A DNA stretch of 41,871 nucleotides, taken from the IMG/VR virus record IMGVR_UViG_3300004770_000039, positions 1 through 41,871 of that record, one strand, 5' to 3'. This DNA is from a virus. Positions within the stretch are counted from its first letter, which is position 1. Each line of letters begins with the position of its first letter. Positions 1-6,882 of the stretch are shown in pieces. The position numbers and the translations under genes were made by a program. The notes under the pieces were generated by a model. It searched no databases, was not told the DNA's origin, and saw only the letters and a program-made list of their open reading frames with translations.

Positions 1-225
1 CGCTGGTTGTTCACGATTAAAATAAACTTCTTCACCATCAATGTTTAATGTGCAAGTAGAACCATCAAGTGCGTATGACACTAATCTTGGTTCTGCTGGT
101 TGCTCTAGTGCTTCTTCACACGCATTGATTGCACCTTTCACCCATGCAGTTTCATATACTCTGTTGTTGTTTAAACAATTTAAAACTTTTAATGCTTTGT
201 GTATTGCTTCGTCTTTAGAGACCAT
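1..225 (-). CDS. Hypothetical phage protein, C-terminus cut by window edge
   Basis: The reading frame starts with ATG at 225 and stays open for 75 codons to position 1, so its 3' end lies outside the window. The protein begins MVSKDEAIHKALKVLN and looks soluble, with a helical N-terminal half and a Glu/Pro-rich 'EEALEQPAEP' linker of the sort common in unannotated phage early proteins. Its start overlaps the end of the ATP-grasp gene by 11 nt, so it is the last visible member of that operon. No function is recognised. Confidence 0.7.
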   Translation of the reverse strand, partial: MVSKDEAIHKALKVLNCLNNNRVYETAWVKGAINACEEALEQPAEPRLVSYALDGSTCTLNIDGEEVYFNREQPA

Positions 226-973
226 TTAAATACTCCTTAAAAGTATTGACATATTTGTCAAAAGTTGTTCCAACAAGACCTGGAGCAGTATTGACTTCGA
301 ACACAAAGATTTTACCATCTCGTTCACGATAACCAACATCAACCGCACCGAAATCTAGACCGAGCAAATTGACAGCAGAAACCGCTGATGATAGTAGTAA
401 CTCAGGAACAGAAACCTCTACCCTAGCATAAATATAACCATTGGAATGATTACGAATGCCACTACTGGGACCAGTATAATCCAAACGTCGTTTCTTTTGT
501 TGAACATCTATAACCTTTCCTTTGAACACATGAACACGAAACTCATGTTTATGTTTAGTTTGAATTGTATACAGTGGTGCATCAACTAACTCATAACTGT
601 TAGTAGCTATTACTATACCAGAACCAGAATGACCTGTCAAGCTTGTTCGACAATATACATTATGATTAGGGTATCCTGCCCATAGATTATATATCTCATA
701 TCTACTTGCACTCCAGATAGGTAGATGAGTAAACCCTGCAGCACTTAACGTTTCAAACGTTTTAAGTTTGTTACTTGCAATAGCAATAGCTTCATGCTTA
801 TTTAAATCTAGATGTGTCCTAATATAATTAACACAGCGACTATTACCCCAATTAATAATAACATCATTTCTCCTAGGTTCATATGTATTACGGACACGCT
901 TAACTCCCAGACCGTGAGCCAAAGCCTTGGCAGACTGAGAGCCTATCTTATATGGAAAGACTTTAAAACGCAT
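215..973 (-). CDS. RimK-type ATP-grasp ligase
   Basis: This 252-residue protein looks like an ATP-grasp carboxylate-amine ligase. Such enzymes use ATP to make an acyl-phosphate and join a carboxylate to an amine or peptide. Visible features are a 'KLKTFETLSAAGF' pre-ATP-grasp segment, a glycine-rich ATP loop 'GHSGSGIVIA' near residue 112, and the metal-binding 'VFEVNTAPGL' near residue 226 with its Glu and Asn. The ATG at 973 follows an AAAGG ribosome site and overlaps the preceding gene by 11 nt. It shares an operon with an amidoligase and a class II glutamine amidotransferase, which suggests a joint peptide or metabolite modification pathway. The substrate is unknown. The ATP-grasp assignment is good; the RimK-like subtype is likely. 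Confidence 0.85.
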   Translation of the reverse strand: MRFKVFPYKIGSQSAKALAHGLGVKRVRNTYEPRRNDVIINWGNSRCVNYIRTHLDLNKHEAIAIASNKLKTFETLSAAGFTHLPIWSASRYEIYNLWAGYPNHNVYCRTSLTGHSGSGIVIATNSYELVDAPLYTIQTKHKHEFRVHVFKGKVIDVQQKKRRLDYTGPSSGIRNHSNGYIYARVEVSVPELLLSSAVSAVNLLGLDFGAVDVGYRERDGKIFVFEVNTAPGLVGTTFDKYVNTFKEYLNGL

Positions 974-1277
974 AACCTTTATCCTTTCGTTTACATTGTA
1001 ACTGTTCTATCTTACGCAACACTTTATAGTAAGGATTATTTCTATCAATATTAGATGGTTCATTTATTAACTTTAAATCTTCAATAGTAATATCCCACTC
1101 ACGAGGATGTTCTCTTGTTAGTTCTCTACCATAAGTATTACTTGATAAATAATAAAAAGAAACTGAAGCAGTTTTACGAGCTTTATTTATAGATTTTATA
1201 ATTCCTTTAGAGCCAATGGTTGTATAAAAATATTCACCACTTACTATTTCTACTTCATCACCTGTTTCAAAAGGCAT
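963..1277 (-). CDS. Small SH3/KOW-like barrel protein (copy 1)
   Basis: The 104-residue protein starts 'MPFETGDEVEIVSGEYF' and continues with alternating short beta strands, the pattern of an SH3-like or KOW barrel. Its tail 'YYKVLRKIEQLQCKRKDKG' is clearly related to the tail of the next gene upstream, so the two are tandem paralogues. Start and stop overlap the neighbouring genes by 11 nt each, which implies translational coupling. A similar domain ends the amidotransferase two genes upstream. It may be a binding or scaffolding module for the modification enzymes; that is inference from context. Confidence 0.7.
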   Translation of the reverse strand: MPFETGDEVEIVSGEYFYTTIGSKGIIKSINKARKTASVSFYYLSSNTYGRELTREHPREWDITIEDLKLINEPSNIDRNNPYYKVLRKIEQLQCKRKDKGYAF

Positions 1278-1566
1278 AGCCAGCCTCCTTACGAATAGTT
1301 TGTAATGATTTTATCTTACGAATAACTTTATAGTGTGGTACACTAGTATCATAGGCAGGCTCTAAGCAATACTCAAACCATGTCCATCCATTATCTAAAG
1401 TATAAACTAATTCTCCATTACTAATCCTATGAACAGATCGTATTATTTTAATTTTACCATCATTAATACAATTCTCCATGTCAATAGCAAAATGTAAAGC
1501 TGAAGTATCAGGAAAACTTTTTACTACTACAACTTCATCACCCATTTTAAACTTAGTAGTCGGCAT
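1267..1566 (-). CDS. Small SH3/KOW-like barrel protein (copy 2)
   Basis: The 99-residue protein begins 'MPTTKFKMGDEVVVVKSF' and reads as a small beta barrel followed by the conserved tail 'HYKVIRKIKSLQTIRKEAG'. It is a diverged tandem copy of the gene downstream. Both genes end in codons for GYAF whose last 11 nt contain the next gene's start codon, so the duplication seems to have included the overlap junction. A strong AAGGAGG ribosome site lies inside the end of the amidotransferase gene. Function unknown, probably tied to the amidoligase operon. Confidence 0.7.
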   Translation of the reverse strand: MPTTKFKMGDEVVVVKSFPDTSALHFAIDMENCINDGKIKIIRSVHRISNGELVYTLDNGWTWFEYCLEPAYDTSVPHYKVIRKIKSLQTIRKEAGYAF

Positions 1567-2410
1567 ATTCCCAACCTCCTTTAGGTTGCCATTGACCTAC
1601 AGGTTCTGGATCATCCCACAAGTCAATGTCACTGAACTTAATGTTATAAATAAACTCAGCATTGTCATTCATTAGATCAACTGAATAGTCTTTGTTAACT
1701 GCTACGATTTCCCATACTGAATTACGAGCATAAGATTTCTTAGCATCACGATCATAATGACCCCAGCTTAACGTAACGATTTCACCAACAACCATATGTT
1801 CTTTTTTGTATTGCCACGATTTAGGATAATACTTATTATTCCAACTAGATTGAACAGCTGGAACAACTGGTGCAGGCTTTTTATAACCTGCGTTTGAATA
1901 CCAAACACCGTCATCCCAGTAACCTTTATCTTCGTTGAAAATCTTTGTATTGCCTTCATTGTCCATGAAAATTAACTTACTATAACCAATACGATTCTCA
2001 ATTAGTTTCTTAATTGGATCTTGAAACAGCTCAAGGTTACCCCACTTCTGAACGAACGGTTGAATTACATCTTCATTGAACAACCAAGTATCAGATTTAT
2101 CAGCAGCATTATAGCCACTGATGATACCATTATGAACAAATGCGAACTTATCATTAACCATATAAGGGTGGCAATTATCTTTATTGATTGGACCATGAGT
2201 CTTAATCCTAAAATGAATTACACATTCTTTCTTTTGATCACGTTTGTAACTACGCCAGAAATCATCGAATGCAAAGAAACCTTTCTTAATATATAACTGA
2301 TTGTTTTTATGGAACATATAGCCAGCACCGTCAGGATTTGTATTGTAACAACGTTGCAATGTATCCTTGTCAATGATTTTAGCTTCTGGTTTATAAATAG
2401 CGATACACAT
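1553..2410 (-). CDS. Class II glutamine amidotransferase with C-terminal SH3-like domain
   Basis: This 285-residue Ntn-hydrolase-type glutaminase would release ammonia from glutamine for a partner ligase. After removal of Met1, Cys2 becomes the N-terminal nucleophile ('MCIAIYKPEA'). Other family signatures are NPDGAGY (25-31), 'HFRIKTHG' with Arg68, HPY (81-83) and 'FVHNG' (91-95). Residues about 205-267 ('MVVGEIVTLSWGHYDRD' onward) form an added beta-rich SH3-like domain resembling the two small proteins encoded next. The start codon shares one base with the amidoligase stop (TAATG), so the two are likely made together. Confidence 0.88.
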   Translation of the reverse strand: MCIAIYKPEAKIIDKDTLQRCYNTNPDGAGYMFHKNNQLYIKKGFFAFDDFWRSYKRDQKKECVIHFRIKTHGPINKDNCHPYMVNDKFAFVHNGIISGYNAADKSDTWLFNEDVIQPFVQKWGNLELFQDPIKKLIENRIGYSKLIFMDNEGNTKIFNEDKGYWDDGVWYSNAGYKKPAPVVPAVQSSWNNKYYPKSWQYKKEHMVVGEIVTLSWGHYDRDAKKSYARNSVWEIVAVNKDYSVDLMNDNAEFIYNIKFSDIDLWDDPEPVGQWQPKGGWEYADY

Positions 2411-3981
2411 TATGCAAATCCTTTCAAGTGATTTGATAGCTCTGGATAGTCTTTGTGATGAGACTTAAGCCAGTTAATAAAAGAGGAATGATGAGTCATA
2501 TGCTTGAGACTTGTTGATGATTGAGCTGGTTGACAATAGTCAGTTAATGCTTGACAAAACTCAAGACGAGATGCAAATTGTTCCCAGTTAGTTGGAGTAC
2601 TAAAGATACGGAACTCAACTGTATCAGTTGGATTTAAGTTTAAAGCATTGTAACGTTCACCACCACGTTTATTAACTAATGGATAAGTTACAGTACGATG
2701 TTTATCTTGTTGAGCATAACTATTGTCAATACGACCTGCAACATAAGCAATGAAATTCTTATTGTCAAGTCGGTTAACGAACTCAGTCATTTTACCAATT
2801 GTAAATAGATTCAATGGCTTACGACTTACATGAACGTGCATGCCAGTGTTAGAAGCAGCAAACAATTCACCAGGAAGATTGTCATAGAACTTCTTGAACT
2901 CTTCACGATGAATCTCAAGTGTTGCTGGACAAGTTACAATCTCAAAGCCATTACGAATTGAACCATCAGATTTCATAATAGCATGACCAGCTAGTTGTTT
3001 ACCAACTTTAACACGAGCTACATCTTTATCACGAGTTTCATACTCAAGCTCGATACCTAGATATAACGTACTAGGTTTTACATTTTTAGCTTTGAATTTA
3101 AGTAAGCTAGGAGCTTTGGTTGAATAGCTGTGAATCTTATAACGATTTTGTAAACAATGCCAACAAACACCATCTTCAAAGCCCTCAGCAGGAGCATCTT
3201 GATCACACTCAGGACAATGTTGCATGACTAATGCATCACGTTGATAAGCTCTACCACGATACCAGATTTCAGTGTTGTGTAACCAAATATTATTACCATT
3301 GTCTTTTGTGTAAGCTGTATAATTAAATTCTCTAGGATCTAATTTGTAATGATAATATTTATATTCATTACTAAACGGATCTCTACGTAAGAACGTTTCC
3401 ATATATAGTTTGTTAGTTAAATGACATTCATAAAGCTTTTCAATGCCATAGTTACGACGTAAATAATCTGCTACGTCTTGGTTATTAAACGTTGGATTTA
3501 AACGTTTAGTTTCTTCAATAACAGTTTGAAGAAGTTTGTCAGTAAATGTACTATATTTTACAATACGAGATTTAACTCTACGTGCAACTTCTCGATAGAT
3601 ACCTTTACGTAGTTTACCATTAAGTAAACGTAATGTAGGAGGATTGCTTAAATAATATAAGGCGTCAATTGCACCTGTTGTTGCATCATAATCACGTTTA
3701 GTTACTAAGCCTGCCATTTGCATGAGATGACGATAGTCATCAACGATACGACCTGTTCGTTTGCTCATGACAATTAAGCTAAGCCATTCTTCTTCTCGAA
3801 CACTAAATCCTTCAGCTGTTAAGCCATTAGCTACACGAGATGTTTTTACTTGTAAATCAAATACGGTATAGTTTGCACCATCCCAATTCCTACGTTGTGC
3901 TTCTACAAATCTAAAGTCAGGATGAAGATTCGGTATATTAAAATCTATCTCCATCAACTGTTTTATGTTAAACGATTTCAT
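2410..3981 (-). CDS. Amidoligase (glutamine synthetase-like fold) with zinc ribbon
   Basis: This 523-residue protein carries a C-terminal amidoligase domain of the Amidoligase_2 type, distantly related to glutamine synthetase. Such domains are predicted to form amide or isopeptide bonds. Motifs are LGIELEYE (308-315), DGS (339-341), GFEIVTCP (345-352), GMHVHVS (380-386) and RYNALNLNPTDTVEFRIF (443-460). The first 250 residues are helical and unassigned. A C-x2-C-x13-C-x2-C zinc ribbon (Cys256, 259, 273, 276) lies between the halves. The ATG at 3981 follows an AGAGGA site. It leads the operon with the amidotransferase and ATP-grasp ligase. The target, whether host surface, a host protein or a small molecule, is not visible. 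Confidence 0.88.
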   Translation of the reverse strand: MKSFNIKQLMEIDFNIPNLHPDFRFVEAQRRNWDGANYTVFDLQVKTSRVANGLTAEGFSVREEEWLSLIVMSKRTGRIVDDYRHLMQMAGLVTKRDYDATTGAIDALYYLSNPPTLRLLNGKLRKGIYREVARRVKSRIVKYSTFTDKLLQTVIEETKRLNPTFNNQDVADYLRRNYGIEKLYECHLTNKLYMETFLRRDPFSNEYKYYHYKLDPREFNYTAYTKDNGNNIWLHNTEIWYRGRAYQRDALVMQHCPECDQDAPAEGFEDGVCWHCLQNRYKIHSYSTKAPSLLKFKAKNVKPSTLYLGIELEYETRDKDVARVKVGKQLAGHAIMKSDGSIRNGFEIVTCPATLEIHREEFKKFYDNLPGELFAASNTGMHVHVSRKPLNLFTIGKMTEFVNRLDNKNFIAYVAGRIDNSYAQQDKHRTVTYPLVNKRGGERYNALNLNPTDTVEFRIFSTPTNWEQFASRLEFCQALTDYCQPAQSSTSLKHMTHHSSFINWLKSHHKDYPELSNHLKGFA

Positions 3982-5522: not shown

Positions 5523-5582
5523 GATATAACTCCTAATAAATTAAATGAATTATCACACGCAATAGTCTCGTGCTTGTGCCGT

Positions 5583-5611
5583 ATTAGCCTATAACGGAAC
5601 GGTTCTGTCAA
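5583..5611 (-). promoter_or_regulatory. Leftward sigma70-type promoter
   Basis: On the minus strand TTGACA (5611-5606), a 17-bp spacer and GCTAAT (5588-5583, four of six consensus bases) precede the leftward gene block. The -35 box lies within an inverted repeat, TGTC-AAT-GACA, at 5606-5616 that could be an operator. Confidence 0.5.
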
Positions 5612-5626
5612 TGACAAATTCATAAA

Positions 5627-6198
5627 CTAGAGCTTAGCAGGCTCTAGGTGCTTTAGCACCGTATGAGATGCTTAGCGAGCTTTATGCAATTTGCTTGTGC
5701 GTGCAATAAAGTCCAACTGATTATCGCCTACTGGCGATGTTGGGCTTTTTGCTCAGCTATCATTTACAGGTTCGTTACGTCAAGGCCTGCTTTAGGCCGT
5801 GCACAAGGCTTTTGTGTGTGTGTCTAGCAAGCAGACGACCACATTATGGTTTTATATAATGTCGGCTGCGTGGTTGTTCAGGCGATAGAGCCGTCTCTGT
5901 GTGGGTACATGAGGAGGGAGACCCGACGAACAATGGGTTACCAAGCACGACAGGATGTCGTATAGCACGCAGGGTTATCGTGTGCGAAAGAAAGCGTTAG
6001 GCACAGATGTGATTTGTTTCGAGTGGGATTGATCACGAGTGTAGTCGAGCAGGGTCGAGACTACCTAGCTTTTGACTTTGAACACAGCCATGACTGGAGG
6101 AGCTTCGTTCGTCTTTGACGAAGCGGGGGAGAGATTTTGACTTGGCAGTTGAATGGGTCCAGGATCATCCTGGTCGTGAGCCCCTCAGGGGCGTGACG
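5627..6198. ncRNA. Candidate large structured non-coding RNA (strand unresolved)
   Basis: This stretch has no ORF, is about 49% G+C by my count over 5641-6180, and is packed with hairpins. Paired arms: 5627-5633/5641-5647 (7 bp), 5647-5651/5656-5660, 5680-5688/5702-5711 (one bulge), 5709-5717/5739-5747 around 5723-5728/5733-5738, 5784-5788/5794-5798, 5841-5847/5856-5862, 5874-5879/5928-5933 closing a branched region, 5947-5952/5956-5961, 5965-5970/5980-5985, 6102-6108/6118-6124, 6159-6164/6168-6173 and 6180-6184/6188-6192. Phages are known to carry giant ornate RNAs (GOLLD, ROOL), so this class is plausible. I cannot match it to a named family. A replication-origin structure is the main alternative. 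Confidence 0.4.
5709..5750 (+). terminator. Terminator-like hairpin within the structured region
   Basis: A 9-bp stem (5709-5717 with 5739-5747, one G-U pair) encloses a 6-bp hairpin (5723-5728/5733-5738) and ends in a run of five T on the plus strand. No rightward gene lies upstream, so it would end a short plus-strand RNA, or it is simply part of the larger fold. Confidence 0.4.
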
Positions 6199-6202
6199 AA
6201 AT
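6180..6202 (+). repeat. Copy 2 of an inverted 23-nt hairpin element
   Basis: A GCCCC-TCA-GGGGC hairpin followed by GTGACG. It is the inverted partner of the element at 5070-5092, and the pair bounds a 1.1-kb segment holding two small genes and the structured region. Confidence 0.55.
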
Positions 6203-6614
6203 GGGGTGGTTTACTGTGGATAATATAGTGGATATATATGTGCTAAGTGACTGATTGTTTATGCTTGGTCTTAACACACTCTTTTAATACAACACCTGTG
6301 GTAAATATACAACATATTGTGGTAATATCATGGGGTTATTACCATTGTCACCTATACCCCTTAGGGGGGAAACTTCACTTGGGTTTGTTTTGGTGTTAGG
6401 CACTCTTCTATTTTTATATAGAAATTTGAGTATAGGTCTACTTGTAGAACAAGTCTCTAGGCCTAGTTAAGTATTAATCCTATACTGTGGTACTAGTTTT
6501 ATAAGATAATCGTTTCTAGGTACCTTTACGTTAGAATTAGAACTATGAATGTGGTCCTCGGAAAGACGACCTCGGACTCAACTCATTAGACGGATTAGTA
6601 ATGAACACTCTCTC
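6203..6614. other. Non-coding spacer with scattered hairpins
   Basis: I see no gene here. Local inverted repeats are present: 6321-6327/6337-6343 (7 bp), 6357-6360/6364-6367, 6406-6411/6418-6423, 6440-6444/6450-6454 and 6583-6588/6599-6604. It may be an extension of the structured RNA, part of an origin or leader DNA. Confidence 0.5.
6322..6351 (-). promoter_or_regulatory. Possible leftward promoter into the structured region
   Basis: Minus strand GTGACA (6351-6346), an 18-bp spacer and TATTAC with an upstream TG (extended -10 form). It is the best candidate I found to transcribe the structured region leftward, but both boxes are imperfect. Confidence 0.25.
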
Positions 6615-6732
6615 TATTATTAATTAATATATATTAATATTATTATAATATATTATATATAATAAATATAAATATAATAATATATATTATAATATATAAA
6701 TAAATATATATAATATTATAATAATTATATTA
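6615..6732. other. 118-bp pure A/T tract, candidate unwinding element of a replication origin
   Basis: Every base from 6615 to 6732 is A or T, mostly short TA/AAT repeats. It lies in the only large gene-free interval, between divergent transcription units. This fits a DNA-unwinding element, but no initiator gene or binding-site repeats are recognised, so the origin call is inference. Confidence 0.4.
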
Positions 6733-6826
6733 GACAATAATAAATCATGTAAGTTCACTCTTAAAGAAAATAAAACGAAGTGGAGCCGAATAAGGCGACA
6801 AAACAAGACCTGCTATCATATTTAAC

Positions 6827-6855
6827 TTGACAAGTCAATAGTTTTGTGTTATAAT
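6827..6855 (+). promoter_or_regulatory. Consensus sigma70 promoter for the virion operon
   Basis: TTGACA (6827-6832), a spacer of exactly 17 bp and TATAAT (6850-6855): both boxes match consensus fully. The start point would be near 6862, about 20 nt before the small terminase ATG. Confidence 0.88.
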
Positions 6856-6882
6856 ATTTAACATAGAGTGAAGGTTTGTAAA

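Follow-up and report, generated by a model that had tools for sequence, protein, structure and literature searches.

Amidoligase cassettes of phages

Cassettes that combine amidoligase and ATP-grasp ligase genes are widespread in phages. In 2009, Iyer, Aravind and colleagues reportedly proposed that amidoligases linked with ATP-grasp and class II glutamine amidotransferase (GAT-II) genes make peptide-type modifications. That study is cited for an amidoligase-type modification operon in PMC10580990, while the cassette is also discussed in PMC5498523; no report of a tested function for amidoligase/ATP-grasp cassettes was found in the literature. Here, an operon of this kind is described from the left end (minus strand) of IMG/VR virus record IMGVR_UViG_3300004770_000039, the whole of which (41,871 bases) is called the window below. 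Its gene set is already in the literature. The slimmed-down combination found in the window, in which a near-obligate pair of amidoligase and GAT-II is joined by a RimK-like ATP-grasp ligase, is new.

The amidoligase/GAT-II pair as the core of the operon

Eighty viral loci encoding an amidoligase of this type were collected, and the contig continues beside the amidoligase gene in 77 of them. GAT-II adjoins the amidoligase in all 77 (downstream in 75, upstream in two), the two genes mostly overlapping or lying ≤40 nt apart, and the three loci without GAT-II are those that a contig end cuts. The pair was seen in 17 of the 18 amidoligase clusters at 50% identity and is also found in phages Marvin, MEP401 and MEP402, in Acinetobacter phage 313, in MW202733 and on two contigs from bacterial genomes (L112 and L113). 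A pattern-limited scan of 84,980 bacterial and archaeal species returned only three relatives, all weak. An ATP-grasp gene was present at 17 of these 77 loci, and the complete records of MEP401, MEP402 and Marvin, among others, lack one; no natural fusion of the ATP-grasp gene was found among the open reading frames (ORFs) of the collected loci. Given this near-obligate pairing and the far rarer ATP-grasp gene, the amidoligase and GAT-II are considered the core, with the ATP-grasp ligase an addition in some lineages, including that of the window. The initial annotation had described five genes as an amide-forming operon of the type proposed by Iyer and Aravind. Such an operon is real and conserved, but its five genes do not make up one indivisible system, as the ATP-grasp gene is optional and the small proteins occur outside the cassette too. 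Splitting a near-obligate two-gene core from an optional ligase cuts the problem down to two-protein biochemistry, and the core model predicts which nitrogen enters the product.

Another uncultivated virus record (IMGVR_UViG_3300011115_000265; 50.8 kb, with one terL and one helicase) carries two complete cassettes, L003 and L034, which have diverged from each other; each consists of amidoligase, GAT-II, small protein(s) and ATP-grasp ligase. With a circularly permuted genome, the two would apparently form a tandem. Provided that the contig was assembled correctly, its two complete cassettes support the view that the cassette of this lineage works as a unit. The cassette is accessory, being missing from the structural relative ct2os315 (terL 75%).

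Several loci have compositions of their own. The primase-terminase stretch of ct2os315 (L005 15863-17411) encodes an ArdC-type anti-restriction protein and a GP88-family protein instead of the cassette, a single hint from this one genome that the stretch may be a site for host-conflict genes. On the 8.3-kb contig L112, binned as bacterial (Flavobacteriaceae bacterium UBA6231), GAT-II, amidoligase and ATP-grasp genes occur together; it may be a phage contig. In Stenotrophomonas phage StenR_269 (L015), two ligase/glutaminase modules seem to adjoin each other within one cluster: a short GAT-II lies beside a protein annotated as glutamine synthetase, and the cluster further encodes an ATP-grasp ligase, an amidoligase accompanied by another GAT-II, and a gamma-glutamyl cyclotransferase.

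Predicted enzymes of the operon

The amidoligase scored above the cut-off of the Pfam profile Amidoligase_2 (E 3.9e-5; 24.1 vs 22 bits), and its C-terminal domain possesses the motifs GIELE, KSDGS, GFE, GMHVHVS and TVEFR. An AlphaFold (AF2) model (mean pLDDT 89.7, pTM 0.61), for which 38 viral sequences were aligned, predicts a glutamine-synthetase (GS) fold for residues 300-523, resembling YbdK (Z 12.0, rmsd 3.9 over 210 residues) and glutamine synthetases (Z 10-11.7). Foldseek matches of the model also include gamma-glutamylmethylamide synthetase, with PafA and Dop weaker. The ExE, DGS, E347, HxHxS, R417, N448 and ExR residues are invariant in 38 of 38 sequences, and a zinc-ribbon-like motif of four cysteines (C256-C259-C273-C276) in the N-terminal region is kept in 33 of 38 relatives. 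Profile, modelled fold and the ExE, DGS, HxHxS and ExR motifs thus place this protein in the Amidoligase_2/glutamine-synthetase superfamily, in agreement with its initial description as a zinc-ribbon amidoligase.

The second enzyme had been annotated as a class II glutamine amidotransferase. Its match to the Pfam profile GATase_4 remained below cut-off (E 8.3e-4), but GlmS models match it at 1.8e-8 and the profile of its family matches GlmS glutaminase structures at 2.5e-8. The AF2 model (mean pLDDT 86.8) predicts an Ntn glutaminase fold for residues 2-180, for which GlmS (Z 14.8) and EgtC (Z 13.9) are nearly tied within the margin of the method, and an SH3-like barrel for residues 200-266 (SH3/Tudor-type folds, Z 7.4-8.8, rmsd down to 1.4 Å). 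C2, R68, T71, N94, G95 (the HNG motif) and D107 are invariant in 34 of 34 relatives. The cysteine following Met1, the glutamine-binding R/T/HNG/D residues and the modelled fold all point to a class II enzyme, as annotated.

The ATP-grasp protein is matched by phrog_2599 at E 2.8e-72, and the solved structures nearest to its family profile are RimK ligases (E 9.4e-7), which upholds the RimK-type annotation. K69, R109, G117, G119, E144, R146, K160, R174, D212, E226 and N228 are invariant in 19 of 19 sequences. An ExR pair has been described for the peptide-ligase assemblage (PMC4431377), and the protein of the window retains this pair together with the metal-binding D/E/N residues; it is predicted to be a RimK-like ligase of phrog_2599. 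The R2K clade is defined by a conserved pair of lysines in its RAGNYA domain (Burroughs 2015; Pfam R2K_2 and R2K_3), and the protein scored 18.3 bits with R2K_2 and 16.3 bits with R2K_3, both below cut-off. Its relatives were identified in 310 of 50,697 GenBank phage records.

The enzyme domains named in the initial annotation were recovered by profile search, though weakly for GAT-II, and no loss of catalytic residues was seen among the relatives of any of the three enzymes. In comparison with its two closest relatives, the window has rough dN/dS values of 0.15-0.3 for all three enzyme genes (~0.25 for the amidoligase), which are thus under purifying selection. The operon is real and conserved, and its enzymes are probably active.

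Operon organisation and the small proteins

The five overlapping genes were confirmed, all on the minus strand (Table 1). Overlaps of 1, 14, 11 and 11 nt occur among them. The further 11-nt overlap that had been listed with these (positions 215-225) is present too, although it involves the ATP-grasp gene and a sixth ORF. At other loci, L002 and L003 among them, relatives of this ORF come after the ATP-grasp gene. A Shine-Dalgarno-like AGGA/GGAGG sequence lies 5' of each start, inside the upstream gene where genes overlap. The 1-nt stop-start overlap of the amidoligase and GAT-II genes, together with the short overlaps in relatives, suggests that synthesis of the two proteins is coupled. The operon adjoins the replication module of the phage.

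Table 1. Predicted genes of the operon at the left end of the window
Gene	Position	Strand	Description
Amidoligase	2410..3981	-	523 aa; ~1-300 N-terminal region, ~300-523 predicted glutamine-synthetase-fold domain
Class II glutamine amidotransferase (GAT-II)	1553..2410	-	285 aa; predicted Cys2 Ntn glutaminase 2-180, SH3-like ~200-266
Small SH3/KOW-like protein 1	1267..1566	-	99 aa; basic helix-like C-terminal stretch; fold sub-threshold
Small SH3/KOW-like protein 2	963..1277	-	104 aa; basic helix-like C-terminal stretch; KOW sub-threshold
RimK-like ATP-grasp ligase	215..973	-	252 aa; phrog_2599
Sixth overlapping ORF	1..225	-	75 aa visible; runs off record end

Both small proteins belong to one variable family, of which usually one or two, and up to four, copies lie between GAT-II and ATP-grasp genes. 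Copies also occur 3' of the ATP-grasp gene in L002, L034 and L035, and CVT22 has a relative outside its cassette. The SH3-like fold initially ascribed to the two proteins was recovered only below threshold: the KOW profile matched small protein 2 at E 0.017, and SH3_12 reached E 1.1e-5 in a relative. With such weak profile matches, an SH3/KOW-type fold is plausible for both. Such a fold is well supported only for residues 200-266 of GAT-II, which had gone unmentioned, and homology between this tail and the small proteins was not shown (hhalign probability 2.6%). The small proteins are best seen as accessory partners and not as defining parts.

Their C-terminal '(K)GYAF' tail was considered as a tag or ligase substrate and rejected, as it tracks the 11-nt overlap. 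Tails of the YAF, YDF, YEF, YAI and HDF kind occur where a gene has an 11-nt overlap with the start of the next one, and most family members that are spaced differently have no tail of this type. The tails are shared because their codons double as the start codon and Shine-Dalgarno sequence of the next gene.

Proposed reaction and its alternatives

Early in infection, the enzymes of the operon probably modify a host molecule by attaching nitrogen or amino acids. As a class II glutaminase is made beside a GS-fold ligase, a glutamine-dependent amidating enzyme is the simplest reading, and ammonia is a substrate of GS-fold ligases such as glutamine synthetase. We judge the case evenly poised for the operon being an early-region amide-forming modification system, with a two-gene glutamine-dependent amidoligase core and an ATP-grasp ligase. 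GAT-II would hydrolyse glutamine at its N-terminal cysteine and pass the ammonia to the neighbouring amidoligase, the GS-fold domain of which would activate a carboxylate of the target with ATP (as an acyl phosphate) and then amidate it. Holding the target or the complex together may fall to several parts: in the amidoligase its zinc ribbon and N-terminal region, in GAT-II its SH3-like tail, and also the small SH3-like proteins. The ATP-grasp ligase may have been acquired from the canonical cassette of Zobellviridae or be shared with it; translated with the pair, it would add an amino acid to the same or a related target; RimK adds glutamate. Candidate targets are a peptidoglycan precursor, a host protein and a small metabolite. 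The initial annotation had likewise suggested that a host surface, a host protein or a metabolite may be modified, with exclusion of competitors or escape from defence as conjectured purposes. In this scheme we infer that the genes are expressed early, that ammonia is transferred, that the reaction is an amidation and that the steps follow this order.

The more specific claim is that the pair itself is a mainly virus-borne glutamine-dependent amidotransferase, in which a GlmS-type glutaminase feeds a GS-fold ligase and a host molecule is amidated, alone or together with the RimK-like ligase. This is offered tentatively; to our knowledge, no characterised enzyme has this pairing of GlmS-type glutaminase and GS-fold ligase. 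Some observations weigh against the proposed scheme. Distant amidoligases in GenBank (C. difficile AR1086-1 and a Microcoleus phage) have no recognisable adjoining GAT-II, and no natural fusion of amidoligase and GAT-II was found among the ORFs of the collected loci. Furthermore, because EgtC, a gamma-glutamyl amide hydrolase, matches GAT-II about as well as GlmS does, GAT-II may be a hydrolase of gamma-glutamyl bonds rather than a source of ammonia.

The main rival is gamma-glutamyl chemistry with an EgtC-like hydrolase, and structure comparison does not separate it from amidation. Here the amidoligase would join glutamate or another carboxylate to a target amine, like YbdK, GCS and gamma-glutamylmethylamide synthetase, GAT-II would trim or recycle the group, and the ATP-grasp ligase would add a further amino acid. 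YbdK and gamma-glutamylmethylamide synthetase are indeed among the closest solved folds of the amidoligase, and the canonical cassette holds further enzymes of gamma-glutamyl type, Peptidase_C26 and gamma-glutamyl cyclotransferase. There is, however, no cyclotransferase in the window or its close relatives and no C26 protein in the operon, and co-translation of a writer with its eraser would be less natural than that of an enzyme with its ammonia source. We regard this chemistry as unlikely.

Either chemistry could serve to modify the host envelope for superinfection exclusion. Bacterial peptidoglycan precursors are amidated in the cytoplasm by glutamine-dependent enzymes (MurT-GatD, mDAP amidotransferases). 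We know of no experiment on an envelope target of such cassettes. The target was proposed for the cassettes of phiEco32 and of Pseudoalteromonas phages (PMC5498523; PMC10580990, citing Iyer 2009), where wall modification against superinfection is a hypothesis. Against it, no envelope-targeting gene was recognised in the operon and the pair also occurs in mycobacteriophages, whose host wall differs; an envelope target is possible but rather doubtful.

Much the same degree of doubt attaches to a host protein as target, or to counter-defence, with the ligases tagging a host or defence protein. RimK glutamylates S6 and PafA ligates Pup, and both bear on this operon, RimK as the nearest solved relative of the ATP-grasp ligase and PafA, with Dop, as a weaker structural match of the amidoligase. 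It has been argued, as a hypothesis, that host proteins may be targets of modification by R2K ATP-grasps of phages (PMC4431377), and ArdC is encoded in the accessory stretch of ct2os315. The ArdC case is a single one, however, and PADLOC gave zero matches and hence no link to known defence systems.

Hypermodification of DNA bases with amino-acid adducts would suit genes that lie beside the replication module, and contact with nucleic acid would be conceivable for the SH3/KOW-like domains and the zinc ribbon, but it is very improbable, as no base hydroxylase, hydroxymethylase or base glycosyltransferase was found among the window proteins scanned, a subset of all ORFs. Phage early regions are mosaic and the GATase match is under the Pfam cut-off, yet a coincidental cluster of unrelated or decaying genes is scarcely credible, being refuted for the amidoligase/GAT-II pair by its adjacency in every locus with room and opposed by the invariant catalytic residues, the purifying selection and the two complete copies in one relative.

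Other features of the record

The record is a tailed phage, with genes for terminase, portal, ribonucleotide reductase (RNR), DnaB-type helicase and DNA polymerase. Its terminase shares 84% identity with that of one uncultivated contig and 75% with that of ct2os315, and among annotated phages with a cassette, those closest to the record are classed as Zobellviridae.

Between the divergent early and late units, about 1 kb (5523-6600) is without convincing ORFs. Local GC content reaches 0.53 there (the phage has 38% GC), with a strong G skew, and strong RNA folding is predicted for 5560-6240 on the plus strand (-241.8 kcal/mol, z -3.4 vs 20 shuffles). The region has no match in Rfam and no relative in GenBank phages, related records or viral contigs (the latter searched with one 18-mer); it is a candidate structured non-coding RNA. 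It is followed by an AT-rich palindromic stretch of 14% GC (6616-6860), with similar AT-rich DNA in L002 and L003, and a sigma-70 promoter matching the consensus at 12/12 positions, with an extended -10, lies at 6827-6855 (plus strand) just before the gene at 6868. The stretch 6616-6860 is a possible origin and late promoter.

Comparison with known cassettes and enzymes

Glutamine synthetase, YbdK and gamma-glutamylmethylamide synthetase share the predicted fold and the active-site motifs of amidoligase residues 300-523, whereas the amidoligase of the window has an extra zinc-ribbon N-terminal region of 300 residues and a linked glutaminase gene. RimK (ribosomal protein S6 glutamate ligase), to which the ATP-grasp family comes closest by profile among solved proteins, is only distantly related to the ligase of the window, which is the shorter of the two (252 vs ~300 aa).

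The canonical 'peptidoglycan modification' cassette of phiEco32, LUZ24 and Zobellviridae (CW02, CVT22, K4, QDWS535 and Pseudoalteromonas phages; PMC5498523, PMC3890496) shares with the window the phrog_2599 ATP-grasp ligase (37-46% identical to those of the CVT22, CW02 and K4 cassettes), an amidoligase of the same superfamily, a GAT-II and a location upstream of primase/helicase. It has in addition a second ligase (PF14395), a partner of ~190 aa, a short amidoligase, a long GAT-II (GATase_6), a Peptidase_C26 protein in CVT22 and often a gamma-glutamyl cyclotransferase, and none of these extra components was found in the window. PF14395 (COOH-NH2_lig) was found in the controls K4 and CVT22 but not in the window or the two contigs closest to it (G001 and G002). 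The GAT-II of the window scored 14.2 bits with GATase_6 (cut-off 27), compared to 55 bits for CVT22. The cyclotransferase (PF06094) is absent in G000-G007 and present in CW02, QDWS535 and UKE3; K4 and CVT22 also lack it, so it does not strictly define the canonical cassette. The window record misses a stretch of the genome between its two ends, and the nearest relative covering it (L002, contig G001) has neither PF14395 nor the cyclotransferase. The operon of the window is not the canonical phiEco32/Zobellviridae cassette.

MEP401 and MEP402, phages of OM43 (Methylophilales; PMC10580990), and their relatives encode the same type of zinc-ribbon amidoligase (30-31% identity), directly followed by the same short GAT-II (44-46% identity), and share the replication module (helicase 63-64%). 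In mycobacteriophage Marvin, gp105 and gp106 correspond to the pair (amidoligase 28% and short GAT-II 24% identical). The catalytic residues of both enzymes are the same in all these phages, but the MEP401/402 and Marvin genomes have no ATP-grasp gene and members of the small SH3-like family were not found there. With CxxC...CxxC ahead of the GS domain and a short adjoining GAT-II, the pair in the window is of the MEP401/402-Marvin type, and the operon is classified as a compact hybrid of an MEP/Marvin-type pair and a Zobellviridae-type ATP-grasp ligase.

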